Source of the DNA: Bacillota bacterium
GTDB lineage: Bacteria > Bacillota_I > Bacilli_A > RF39 > UBA660
DNA: 64,000 bases
Direction of reading: 5' to 3'
Assembly: GCA_021771185.1 (NCBI GenBank)
Contig: JAETPN010000002.1
Coordinates: 1-64,000, forward strand
Position numbers and translations under genes: made by a program. Shown piece after piece: positions 5,964 through 57,116 of this stretch; the stretch's first letter is position 1, and each line of letters starts with the position of its first letter. Under the pieces are notes generated by a model. It made no database searches and was not told where the DNA came from. It saw nothing but the letters and a program-made list of their open reading frames with translations.

Positions 5964-6320
5964 ATGATGCAAATTATATGTTATATTTTTCCAGCTGTAG
6001 TTGCAGTATGGGTTACGGAATCTATCAGGAAACAACAATATCAATTAAAAGAGTGGGTATATCACTATTTTATTTATGTGATAAGTATTAATTTTTTAAT
6101 TTCATTACTTTTGTCGACTGTATTTACTGGTGCAGATGTATATTTGTCTATGGGACATTTTACACATTCATTAATTGTTAAGTATTTAGGTTTGTCAATG
6201 ATTTTATCATTTGTTTTACCAGTATTATTTACTATTTTAAGAAATAATTTTCAATTAAATTTATTTATTGAACAGGTAAATAATCAAGATGTAAGGAAGA
6301 AAAGAAATGGCAAGAAATAA
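5964..6320 (+). CDS. Small membrane protein of unknown function
   Basis: A 118-residue protein with three predicted helices (about residues 3-18, 33-53 and 70-92) and a basic C-terminus. I do not recognise a family. It overlaps the LTA-synthase-like gene by 14 nt, so the two are probably co-translated, and the protein may assist that enzyme or the glycan pathway around it. Position is the only support for this link. An alternative start is the adjacent ATG at 5967. Confidence 0.6.
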   Translation: MMQIICYIFPAVVAVWVTESIRKQQYQLKEWVYHYFIYVISINFLISLLLSTVFTGADVYLSMGHFTHSLIVKYLGLSMILSFVLPVLFTILRNNFQLNLFIEQVNNQDVRKKRNGKK

Positions 6321-7842
6321 AAAATTCTTAAAAAATAGTTTTCATTTATTGTTATTATTATTAAGTATAATACTTATCATTAGTATAAAATGGTTTAAAT
6401 TAACTTTTTCGGATGTCACTTTAGAACAACTTATTTTTCACTTAAAAGTACCACTTAATGGAAGTAATGATGATTTTTTTATGCAATATCTTTACTACTT
6501 TAAAACATGGATACCATTCATAGTGATAGTATTCTTTATCGTAATACTTTTTTGTAGTCATTGGTTTAACCATTCTTTTCAAATAAAAGTGAATATGGTG
6601 ATTCAAAACGAGTCAAAAAATTTCTTGATCACTGTTAGAGATTATGTAAAGATTTTATACATACTAAACATTATTTTATTTATCATTTCATTAATTTATT
6701 GCTTTATACAATTAAATATTAGGCAATATATTTCTAATATCATAAATGTCTCTACTATTTATGAAGATTCTTATGTAGATCCTAAAAATGTAACATTGTT
6801 ATTTCCAAAACAAAAACAAAATTTAATCTATATTTATTTGGAATCTATGGAAAGTACATTTCAGAATCTTCATGAGAAAGAAACTGGTGAGATCAATCTT
6901 ATTCCTAATTTAAAATCACTAGCTTTGAATAATATTTCTTTTTCGAATACAGAAGATTTAGGTGGGGGTTATACAACGTATGGAACTACCTGGACGATTG
7001 CTGGTATGGTTGCACAAACGGCAGGGATTCCTTTAACTATACCTATTGATGGAAACTCATTAAATAGTTATTCTTCTTTTTTACCAGGAGTATATAATTT
7101 GGGTGATATTTTAGATCGTGAAGGTTATAATCAGTTTATGATCATTGGTTCAGATAAGGCCTTTGGCGGACGATCTAACTATTTTGAACAACATGGAAAG
7201 TATCAAATTTATGATTACTATAGTGCGATTAAAGATCATAGAATTCCAAAAGATTATTATGTATGGTGGGGTTATGAGGATTTAAAATTATTTGATTATG
7301 CCAAAGAACAACTTCTAAATCTTTCCAAAAAAGATCAGCCATTTAATTTTACTTTATTAACAGCTGATACACATGCAGCGGATGGTTATAGGGATGATAC
7401 TTGTCAAGAAATAACGAACAGTAAATATGCTAATGCGGTTATCTGCTCAGATCAAAAAGTTTATGATTTTATTCGTTGGATTCAAGAACAAGATTTTTAT
7501 GATAATACAACCATCGTTATTTCTGGTGATCATTTATTAATGGGAAACTTTCTATTTGATGCTAATGATCAAGAGAATCATACCGTATATAATGCAATTA
7601 TCAATTCTCGTGTTCAACCAGAAAACGCGAAAAATAGAACATTTACAACCCTTGATATGTTCCCAACGACTTTAGCTGCCATGGGTGTAGATATTGAAGG
7701 AGATCGTTTAGGTCTTGGAACAAATTTATTTTCTACAAAGAAAACATTGGCTGAAGAATTAGGATACGAAAAATTTAATAAAGAATTACAGAAAAAATCC
7801 CATTTCTATAATAATCAATTATTGTATGAAAAGAAAAAATAG
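6307..7842 (+). CDS. LTA synthase/phosphoglycerol transferase-like sulfatase-fold enzyme
   Basis: Three N-terminal membrane helices (within residues ~10-140) precede an extracellular alkaline-phosphatase/sulfatase-fold domain. Visible landmarks are YLESMEST (~176), a GGGYTTYGTTWT segment (~217-229) supplying the likely Thr nucleophile, GSDKAFGG (~280), SGDHLLMG (~406) with metal-binding Asp-His, and a TTLDMFPTTLAAMGV...GDRLGLGTNLFS tail close to the OpgB/MdoB subgroup. The family moves glycerol phosphate from phosphatidylglycerol onto glycolipids, teichoic acid chains or glucans. At 511 residues it is shorter than LtaS (~650). It sits with other surface-glycan genes; the acceptor is not predictable. 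Confidence 0.85.
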   Translation: MARNKKFLKNSFHLLLLLLSIILIISIKWFKLTFSDVTLEQLIFHLKVPLNGSNDDFFMQYLYYFKTWIPFIVIVFFIVILFCSHWFNHSFQIKVNMVIQNESKNFLITVRDYVKILYILNIILFIISLIYCFIQLNIRQYISNIINVSTIYEDSYVDPKNVTLLFPKQKQNLIYIYLESMESTFQNLHEKETGEINLIPNLKSLALNNISFSNTEDLGGGYTTYGTTWTIAGMVAQTAGIPLTIPIDGNSLNSYSSFLPGVYNLGDILDREGYNQFMIIGSDKAFGGRSNYFEQHGKYQIYDYYSAIKDHRIPKDYYVWWGYEDLKLFDYAKEQLLNLSKKDQPFNFTLLTADTHAADGYRDDTCQEITNSKYANAVICSDQKVYDFIRWIQEQDFYDNTTIVISGDHLLMGNFLFDANDQENHTVYNAIINSRVQPENAKNRTFTTLDMFPTTLAAMGVDIEGDRLGLGTNLFSTKKTLAEELGYEKFNKELQKKSHFYNNQLLYEKKK

Positions 7843-7857
7843 TTAAAAACAGTCAAT

Positions 7858-7885
7858 TTGACAAAATTTTAGAATATGATATAAT
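7858..7885 (+). promoter_or_regulatory. Strong sigma-A-type promoter of the OLE-like RNA
   Basis: Perfect TTGACA (7858-7863), 16-nt spacer, extended TG, perfect TATAAT (7880-7885). It is among the best promoters in the window and has no ORF directly after it, so the product is RNA starting near 7892. Confidence 0.85.
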
Positions 7886-7891
7886 GAATTA

Positions 7892-8467
7892 CATAAATTG
7901 ATGGCGCATTATTCTAGTCAATTAATTTATTATGAAGGCGGGGCTAAAAATCCGCTAAAGAGCATATCTGTGAAACTTTTGGTGCTTGCTTCATACGCCC
8001 AGTTTGGGGTGAGTGCTGAAAGGTAGGGTGTTGGGCGCTCGTAATGGCATACGACTCCGACCCACCATCTGTGGAGACCTAAGCTTGTTATAAACGCGAA
8101 GATTTGTGACGACTTAGGATTAAACCTACTTTGTGGCGCAAGTTATGAGTAGTGTAGCTTGTCTTGAGTGATGATAGGGGATAGATGACCAGCCAAGTAG
8201 TCTATGGCCAAAATTATTTGGTATCGCATCTTGAAACTATGATTGCAAAAAAGAATTAATAATAAATATTGTTTGAGGAAAACTCCTAGAGTGTTAAGTC
8301 TGCAGGATTGCAGTGTGCACTAAGTGGCAATCAAGTCATATATTTGGTGACAATATATCTAGTTTTTTAAAGGGGAACCGCAACATGGTAACGTGGTGTA
8401 AAACTAGGGGAAATCCTACTTGACCTAAAGGCGCAAGGTTTACTGTATGGCATGCCATCTTTTTTTT
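7892..8467 (+). ncRNA. ole: Large structured non-coding RNA, probable OLE RNA
   Basis: Some 575 nt without a plausible protein gene, richer in G+C than its surroundings and full of local inverted repeats (for example GCGGGG...TCCGC and AGCA...TGCT near 7940-7990). It starts from a near-consensus promoter. The 5' end GATGGC (7900-7905) is complementary to GCCATC (8454-8459), directly before eight T (8460-8467), so the two ends can close the molecule at a terminator. A gene for a four-helix membrane protein starts 23 nt further on. OLE RNAs (ornate, large, extremophilic) are about 600 nt and lie upstream of the gene for their membrane partner OapA. Size and context fit; I could not align it to the OLE consensus. 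Other large RNA classes (ROOL, GOLLD) remain possible. Confidence 0.75.
8441..8467 (+). terminator. Terminator/3' end of the OLE-like RNA
   Basis: The self-complementary ATGGCATGCCAT followed by C and eight T. The same 3' arm can pair with the 5' end of the RNA at 7900-7905, so the hairpin and the closing stem are alternatives. Read-through would be needed to express the membrane protein from the same promoter. Confidence 0.6.
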
Positions 8468-8490
8468 GTTATAAAATATATAGGAGAATT

Positions 8491-9090
8491 ATGAAAAAGG
8501 AAGAAAAAAAAGAAATAGAACAGTTTAAAAAACAAAATAAAAAATATGAAAAAAAGAATAAACAAAAGGCAAATATTCGTTGGGTTACTACCTTAACACT
8601 TATGGCATTTGTTATTTCCTTTTGCTTTTCATTCTTTTCAGAAACCATTTTACCAAATGCCCATGTTTTAATTGGAATTTTACTCGTCTTTGTATTTATT
8701 GGATTAGGAATTATTTTTGATATGGTAGGTGTTGCTGTAACAGCAGCAGATGAAAAACCCTTTCATTCTATGAGTGCCCATAAAGTTCATGGTGCTAAAG
8801 TAGCGATTATGTTTAAAAAAAATGCCGATAAAGTTGCAAGCTTTTGTTGTGATGTTATTGGAGATATTTGTGGTATTATTTCTGGTTCTGCAGGTGTGAT
8901 TGTTAGCACTAACATATCTAGTACACTGCATTTAAATACCTTTATAATTACTTTATCCATTACTGCTTTTATTGCCGCATTAACCATTGGTGGAAAAGCT
9001 CTAGGAAAAAGTTTAGCGATGACAAAATGTAATATGATTCTTTATGAATTTTCAAAAATTGTATCGATTGTTTATCATCCAGGAAAGTAA
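8491..9090 (+). CDS. oapA: Four-helix membrane protein, probable OLE-associated protein OapA
   Basis: A 199-residue protein starting at 8491 behind AGGAG; an upstream in-frame ATG at 8452 lies inside the RNA 3' end and is rejected. It has a highly basic, Lys-rich N-terminus (residues 1-30) and four predicted membrane helices (about 31-50, 57-82, 120-139, 148-169). A polar loop with DEKPFHSMSAHKVHGAK joins helices 2 and 3. Helix 3 carries DVIGD, and GVAVTAADEK resembles the DUF21/CNNM fold of Mg/Co transporters. OapA proteins bind OLE RNA at the membrane and influence responses to Mg, alcohols and cold in Bacillus halodurans. Position directly after the RNA is the main evidence. A stand-alone DUF21-like transporter is the alternative. 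Confidence 0.75.
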   Translation: MKKEEKKEIEQFKKQNKKYEKKNKQKANIRWVTTLTLMAFVISFCFSFFSETILPNAHVLIGILLVFVFIGLGIIFDMVGVAVTAADEKPFHSMSAHKVHGAKVAIMFKKNADKVASFCCDVIGDICGIISGSAGVIVSTNISSTLHLNTFIITLSITAFIAALTIGGKALGKSLAMTKCNMILYEFSKIVSIVYHPGK

Positions 9091-9160: not shown

Positions 9161-9196
9161 AAGAGAAAAGGAAAACATACTTTTCTCTTCTTTTTT
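9161..9196 (+). terminator. Intrinsic terminator after the OapA-like gene
   Basis: Stem AAGAGAAAAG with CTTTTCTCTT (10 bp), loop of nine, then a T run. Confidence 0.8.
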
Positions 9197-9199
9197 TGA

Positions 9200-9257
9200 T
9201 TGACTTTTTTTGATAATCACGTTATACTTAATATAGAAATAGTAATTATTACTATTT
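9200..9257 (+). promoter_or_regulatory. Promoter with Per/Fur-type operator
   Basis: TTGACT (9200-9205), 17-nt spacer, TATACT (9223-9228). Overlapping the start-site region is an inverted repeat with perfect 10-bp arms, AAATAGTAAT (9237-9246) and ATTACTATTT (9248-9257), around one base. The core fits the 7-1-7 layout of Per boxes. It precedes a PerR-type gene and rubrerythrin, so autoregulation by peroxide and metal is likely. Confidence 0.8.
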
Positions 9258-9268
9258 TGAGGTGACAC

Positions 9269-9655
9269 ATGAAATATTCCCATCAACGAGAGCTTATTTT
9301 ACAAGTGATGAAACAATCTTTAGGTCATTTAACAGCAAGGCAAGTCTATCAAAGAGTAAAAGAAGAATTGCCCACAATTAGTTTAGGTACTATATACCGT
9401 AATTTAAATGTTTTAGATGAGCAAAATTTGATTCGAAGAATTGTAGTTCCTTATGGGTGTGATGAATTTGATTATAACCCTACAGAACATTCACATTTCT
9501 TTTGTACAAAGTGTGAAAGTCTTTATGATTTAGAAGCTCATATTGATCAAAAAATGAAACAGGTAGTAGAAGAAACTACAGGGTATGAAATTACAAATAC
9601 CAATGTAGTATTTAAAGGAGTATGTCACAAGTGTCATGGAAGGAAAGAAGGTTAA
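9269..9655 (+). CDS. perR: Fur-family regulator, PerR type
   Basis: A 128-residue Fur-family protein: an N-terminal winged helix with [20 protein letters not shown] (DNA-recognition helix), then HSHFFCTKC and CHKC, the two CxxC pairs of the structural zinc site. PerR proteins repress peroxide-stress genes with Fe or Mn and are inactivated by oxidation of His residues. The perfect inverted repeat in its own promoter and the rubrerythrin gene 2 nt downstream support a peroxide role over Fur or Zur. It is a few residues shorter at the N-terminus than B. subtilis PerR. Confidence 0.85.
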
Positions 9656-9657
9656 GT

Positions 9658-10197
9658 ATGGATTTAAAAGGTTCAAAAACAGAACAAAATTTAATGACAG
9701 CATTTGCTGGAGAAAGTCAGGCGCGTAATAAATATACTTATTATGCAAGCAAGGCAAAAAAAGATGGATATGAACAACTTGCAGCAATTTTTACGGAAAC
9801 TGCAAACAATGAAAAAGAACATGCAAAAATGTGGTTTAAACATCTTCATGGTGGAAATATTCCAGGAACATTAGAAAACTTAGAAGATGCAGCTGCTGGT
9901 GAAAATTATGAATGGACAGATATGTATGCTGAATTTGCAAAAGTAGCTCGTGAAGAAGGTTTTGATCATATTGCTTTCCAATTTGAAGAAGTAGCAAAAA
10001 TTGAAAAATTACATGAAGAAAGATATCGTGCCTTCATTGAAAACATCAATGAACAAAAAGTTTTCAAAAAAGATGAAGAACATTTCTGGATTTGTCGTAA
10101 CTGTGGACATGTACATTATGGGGTAGAAGCTCCTGAAGTATGTCCTGTATGTGCTCATCCACAAGCATATTTTGAATTACGTGCAGAAAATTATTAA
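9658..10197 (+). CDS. rbr: Rubrerythrin
   Basis: A 179-residue protein with an N-terminal di-iron four-helix bundle ([12 protein letters not shown]-type ExxH sites: NNEKEHAK and [11 protein letters not shown]) and a C-terminal rubredoxin-like domain with CRNCG and CPVC iron ligands. Rubrerythrins reduce hydrogen peroxide to water in anaerobes using a reduced rubredoxin domain. The ATG at 9658 behind AAGAAGG is chosen over an upstream frame from 9622, which lies within the regulator gene. It is co-transcribed with the PerR-type gene and should be induced by peroxide. It points to an anaerobic lifestyle. Confidence 0.95.
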
Positions 10198-26340: not shown

Positions 26341-26428
26341 TTGTGTAGAGCCTCTCTACAACCGCACGAACTAAGGTTTTAAACGTAAGTACCTTAAATA
26401 GGCGAGTCTTAGATGAATGGAGGGAAAA
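26341..26428 (+). ncRNA. Ribosomal protein L21 leader
   Basis: A structured 5' leader directly before rplU: hairpin TGTAGAG/CTCTACA (26344-26360), then ACCGCACGAACTAAGGT, an ACCTT partner strand, and GGCGAGTCTTAG near the start. Sequence order and position match the Firmicute L21 leader class, thought to let L21 control its own operon. Confidence 0.8.
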
Positions 26429-56918: not shown

Positions 56919-57116
56919 ATTGAATTTATTGGTTTGAAGGAGTATATTTAACCGTTCTTTTAGAGAGTGTATGGTTGGTGAAAATACATAGAGGGTTAAA
57001 TAGAAAGACATCAAATGATACAATAATCGTATGTCTGCGTTAAAGATTAAAGATAGCTAAAGTCTATGAAATAAGGTGGTACCACGTAAATTACGTCCTT
57101 ATATCTAGACTTTTTT
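56919..57116 (+). promoter_or_regulatory. T-box riboswitch, Asp (overlapping His) specifier
   Basis: Stem I base pairs TATTG (56927-56931) with CAATA (57021-57025) and TTTGA with TCAAA. The specifier loop has AGTA (56941-56944) opposite GAAAGACAT (57003-57011), above it ATTTAACC/GGTTAAAT. In this loop the specifier is GAC (57007-57009), an Asp codon; CAT (57009-57011), a His codon, overlaps it by one base. The distal part AGAGAGTGTATGGTTGGTG...ATACA is canonical. The T-box AATAAGGTGGTACCACG is at 57070-57086 and the terminator pairs AGTCTA with TAGACT before six T. It should switch on the operon when tRNA-Asp (perhaps tRNA-His) is uncharged. Confidence 0.93.

Follow-up and report, generated by a model that had tools for sequence, protein, structure and literature searches.

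The window analysed here, a 64,000-nucleotide stretch at the start of contig JAETPN010000002.1 from a Bacillota bacterium, carries a full-length OLE RNA gene directly followed by oapA, and we are almost certain that the two form a genuine OLE-OapA unit. OLE RNAs are among the largest structured bacterial RNAs. The genome that encodes this one (1.24 Mb, 94% complete) contains no detectable OapB, OapC or MpfA while its OLE RNA stays full length. Since OLE RNA was found in reduced-genome gut Bacillota of the RF39 and TANB77 clades in 2024 (PMC11332333), the unit is a further member of a published kind, a new example and not a new type, and the novelty implied by the original prediction, which had been made from the sequence of the window, is not upheld.

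The RNA gene and its boundaries are defined by the following features.

7858 to 7885, plus strand: ole promoter, TTGACA-16-TATAAT with TG before the -10 (12/12 consensus)
7885 to 8474, plus strand: OLE RNA gene, full-length form (RF01071, 411 bits, model 1-616)
7900 to 7905, plus strand: GATGGC, 5' strand of the P1 closing helix (direct sequence)
8454 to 8459, plus strand: GCCATC, 3' strand of P1, ahead of T8 at 8460-8467 (direct sequence)

The match to the Rfam OLE model lies far above its cut-off of 50 bits (E 2.6e-117) and runs from end to end without truncation, and no other RNA class, ROOL and GOLLD included, reached the gathering threshold at 7885-8474 in the Rfam scan. The structured RNA of about 575 nt that had been proposed is thus confirmed; its free fold is more stable than those of shuffled sequences (z -2.55), and the transcript probably spans about 7892-8467. 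A promoter described beforehand as near consensus proved to be perfect, with an extended -10 TG, and is the sole 12/12 site in the region scanned. A promoter of at least 11/12 precedes 45 of the family's 65 OLE genes at this fixed place, compared with 1 of 304 upstream background windows. The complementary GATGGC and GCCATC ends are where they had been noted. The eight-T run is present too, but the local stem before it reaches just -2 kcal/mol. The idea of a separate strong terminator hairpin ahead of oapA was therefore dropped, and the 3' end would be set either by long-range pairing in P1 or by processing.

All 17 conserved motifs that were tested occur in the window RNA; P5-P9 are retained, as are the two strands of the k-turn, the loop of P4, the L9.3 GGCC and the P12.2/P13 loops.

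7919 to 7933, plus strand: 5' strand of the P3/P3.1 helix, 4 bp, 2-nt bulge, 9 bp (duplex prediction, family covariation)
7944 to 7952, plus strand: P4 loop CUAAAAAUC, A-rich, A-A dimer bridge (motif check; function from PMC12286853)
7963 to 7973, plus strand: J4a/5 strand of the k-turn, OapC site (OLE model alignment, motif check; function from PMC9723947, PMC12286853)
8071 to 8077, plus strand: J6/7 strand GUGGAGA, k-turn partner (model alignment, motif check; PMC12286853)
8206 to 8209, plus strand: L9.3 palindrome GGCC (model alignment, motif check)
8259 to 8271, plus strand: 3' strand of P3/P3.1 (duplex prediction, family covariation)
8340 to 8405, plus strand: P12.2/P13 region, with loops GGUGAC at 8346-8351 and GGUAAC at 8387-8392 (model alignment, motif check)

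P3, for which a passage through the membrane has been proposed (PMC12265935), has 13 bp with a 2-nt bulge, where about 12 bp are expected of an OLE RNA, and covaries strongly across the family, where pairing with its own partner gives -10.2 kcal/mol versus -5.7 +/- 0.3 kcal/mol with a swapped partner. Both dimer-contact sequences, the A-rich P4 loop and the palindromic P9 loop, are present, L9.3 GGCC being the symmetric kissing loop of the OLE dimer (PMC12286853); judging from work on other species, the window RNA would dimerise through these P4 and P9 contacts. That the k-turn is kept in a full-length OLE RNA without OapC fits the cryo-EM view that OLE RNA forms its k-turn without protein, and the P12.2/P13 region is the one bound by OapB in H. 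halodurans (PMC9723947).

In its full-length architecture, its oapA directly downstream with the DxxxD motif, its A-rich P4 loop, k-turn strands, L9.3 GGCC and P12/P13 loops, and its P3 of about 12-13 bp, the window unit resembles the OLE/OapA systems (RF01071) of H. halodurans and Clostridium acetobutylicum. It differs from them in its small genome without OapB, OapC or MpfA and in its neighbours, which are LTA-synthase-like and perR-rubrerythrin genes; in addition, the model alignment shows that a small hairpin near position 424 of the Rfam model, just after P10, is absent. With variant 1 (TANB77) and variant 2 (RF39; without P7 and P8) of Fernando and Breaker 2024 (PMC11332333) it shares a reduced-genome, probably gut, Bacillota host in which OapB and OapC are missing. 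Because the window RNA keeps P7 and P8 (both stems aligned) and the P13 loop, it is a full-length form and belongs to neither variant.

The protein-coding half of the unit begins 23 nt past the T run, as predicted, behind the ribosome site AGGAG.

8491 to 9090, plus strand: oapA, 199-aa membrane protein (homologues, alignment, predicted structure)
8851 to 8865, plus strand: DxxxD of OapA, residues 121-125, D121 and D125 (alignment)
9161 to 9197, plus strand: probable oapA terminator, an A/T-rich hairpin of 10 bp with a T run (sequence; fold -11.7 kcal/mol, z -1.74)

This protein and those encoded directly downstream of OLE elsewhere are members of one family. Relatives of the window protein share 36-66% identity across 80 loci, including Maledivibacter halophilus and Bacillus chungangensis, and OLE lies directly upstream at 12/12 of the close Bacilli loci scanned. 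The DxxxD motif is invariant in 30 aligned relatives. Pfam and NCBIfam models gave no match to the window protein (PF01595, CNNM, scored a weak 10.9 bits, cut-off 28.4) and a profile search by sequence found no solved structure, so we turned to fold comparison. With an AlphaFold2 model (pLDDT 89.5), the top matches were the CNNM Mg2+ transporters MtCorB and CorC (Z 15.0 to 12.5; for MtCorB 7m1t, Z 15.0 with 129 residues aligned at 2.2 A), and the next unrelated chain scored Z 7.8. OapA is therefore predicted to have the CNNM (DUF21) fold, in agreement with its earlier description as DUF21-like and with the published CNNM relationship and DxxxD hallmark (PMC11332333). While its membrane domain would share this fold with the CNNM/CorC Mg2+ transporters (MpfA, CorB), OapA falls below the CNNM cut-off, lacks CBS and CorC_HlyC domains, and has the DxxxD motif and four predicted membrane helices.

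The genes on either side are those that had been named in advance.

6307 to 7842, plus strand: LTA-synthase-like sulfatase-fold membrane enzyme (PF00884, 81 bits)
9269 to 9655, plus strand: Fur-family regulator, PerR-like (PF01475; NF052545 95.6 bits, below its cut-off of 180)
9658 to 10197, plus strand: rubrerythrin (NF045767, 261.7 bits)

In about seven other genera of the family, perR and/or rubrerythrin likewise lie downstream of ole-oapA. A perfect 7-1-7 palindrome, TAGTAATTATTACTA, at 9240-9254 before perR is a probable PerR/Fur-type operator and is conserved in a congener, G028. In that genome (L165, G028:C6:16465-16592) the LTA-synthase-like gene adjoins perR-rubrerythrin with no ole or oapA between them, and the intergenic stretch of less than 200 bp retains the perR promoter and the operator-like palindrome. 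Because the same arrangement recurs in other genera, a natural loss of ole-oapA, not replaced by MpfA, is the simpler reading of this locus; a match to bS21 was not found in G028 either. Elsewhere in the window, Rfam matches mark a T-box leader (56926-57103) and an L21 leader (26350-26419).

H. halodurans cannot do without OapB and OapC, so a particle lacking them may work differently. The original prediction had suggested looking for their homologues in the same genome, and neither was found, in line with the literature (PMC11332333). A profile search for L7Ae (OapC, L7Ae/YbxF) detected none in the source genome and none above the cut-off in any of the 98 family genomes, with B. subtilis positive as the control. 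The KOW search (PF00467) for OapB returned only two genes, whose products look like L24 and NusG, and map and infA are 4 bp apart with no gene between them; in Bacillus chungangensis the same search located OapB between map and infA, confirmed against PDB 7k9b (E 7e-30). CorC_HlyC, the marker of MpfA, was not detected in the source genome, nor above its cut-off in any of the 98 family genomes. The ribosomal protein bS21 is present in the source genome (36.2 bits, over the cut-off); among the nine family genomes negative for it, five, counted by eye, also lack OLE and OapA.

OLE and OapA each occur in 65 of the 98 family genomes, and they occur together: 63 genomes have both, 31 have neither and 4 are exceptions, three of which (G018, G085, G087) sit at contig ends, with OLE in G085 truncated by the contig end. 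The other, G034 (L152, G034:C19:42076-42678; 93% complete), has OLE with a good promoter and no oapA adjoining it or found in the genome. The pair can also be unlinked. In G003, ole and oapA lie mid-contig on separate contigs (G003:C3:30733-31341 and G003:C12:4924-5514), and other genes or contigs separate the two in G051, G005, G036, G038, G069 and G089 as well. A second OLE copy in G025 (L116:4956-5424, G025:C3), a genome with about 4% contamination, is cut by a contig end; in this copy P5-P10 are conserved, and degeneration affects P4 and the conserved 5' block. Across Bacillota, the reported trend is for MpfA to compensate where OLE is absent (PMC11332333). The family departs from this trend: a switch to MpfA in OLE-less genomes is not supported, and because the 31 genomes without OLE and OapA also lack MpfA, a simple exchange of one for the other fails here. 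The relatives of the source genome are Bacilli/Tenericutes MAGs from gut, rumen and digester, and the source organism is probably host (gut) associated. Its genome size, the OLE variant types and their published distribution would put it within or close to the RF39 clade.

The RNA itself forms a length series within the family, with full forms of about 540-617 nt, short forms of about 470-536 nt and mini forms of 378-381 nt. The two short forms that were aligned lack P7/P8, as does published variant 2. The mini-OLE, found in two genomes of one genus (G035, L118:5163-5543, and G098:C9:18515-18892) with oapA downstream, is 95% identical between its two copies and is smaller than both published variants. 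At about 380 nt it lacks P5-P8; what it retains is P3, again of 13 bp, the A-rich loop and stem of P4, P10 and the complete 3' domain. We rejected a loss of its P9 loop, as the alignment contains a short P9 hairpin with the loop palindrome GAUC, one of the reported kissing-loop palindromes (PMC12286853). Mini-OLE and its oapA share their locus type with several short forms, next to spoIIR, mntP and an EPSP-synthase-family (murA-like) gene and downstream of a small lipase-like gene.

Work on H. halodurans, together with cryo-EM, describes a dimeric membrane ribonucleoprotein with a role in cation handling and stress (PMC9723947, PMC12054373, PMC12286853, PMC12265935), and carrying this function over from that one distant species leads us to the following model for the source organism. 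The strong promoter of its own would make the RNA of about 575 nt abundant; the RNA would fold as P1-P13 and dimerise through P4, P9 (and P5-P6) contacts; and OapA, the membrane protein with the predicted CNNM fold, would hold it at the membrane. In its most likely role the particle would adjust how the cell handles divalent cations (Mg2+) and tolerates stress, with the RNA taking the control role that CBS and CorC domains have in MpfA transporters, and would run without OapB and OapC, with bS21 available. We give this cation and stress mechanism about an even chance of applying in the source organism.

Less probable, yet a serious contender, is that the identities are right and that, in this reduced-genome lineage, the unit has given up the classical stress response: it would serve as a simple cation transporter on an RNA scaffold, or persist as a relic that is nearing loss as selection on it relaxes. 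The missing OapB, OapC and MpfA, the clean loss in G028, the 33 of 98 family genomes without an OLE match and the shorter forms all speak for such a reading, while the full set of motifs, perfect promoter and intact OapA of the window copy and the retention of both genes in most genera speak against it. A large structured non-coding RNA directly 5' of a membrane-protein gene could also be another large ornate class (ROOL, GOLLD) or an operon leader controlling oapA, which we consider very improbable because OLE alone reaches its cut-off, with a full-length match, and because ole and oapA are separable in other genera (for example, G003), a situation disallowed for a cis-acting leader.

The OLE particle of this family may be a stripped machine of RNA and OapA (bS21 being available), in which the k-turn and P13 serve RNA architecture more than OapC and OapB and whose loss is not compensated by MpfA; we hold the odds of this to be balanced. 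If true, the series from full through P7/P8-less to 380-nt forms would define the minimal functional OLE RNA, and most of cytoplasmic domain 1 would be dispensable, as the 380-nt form keeps only P3, P4, the palindromic P9 loop and the 3' domain. For studies of structure and binding, the mini-OLE is an obvious minimal construct, and the window species and G028 offer a natural comparison of presence and absence at a single locus. For an RNA that has kept its biochemical function hidden for about 20 years, these small-genome relatives amount to a natural dissection, revealing what can be lost from the RNA and among its proteins while the RNA and OapA stay together.
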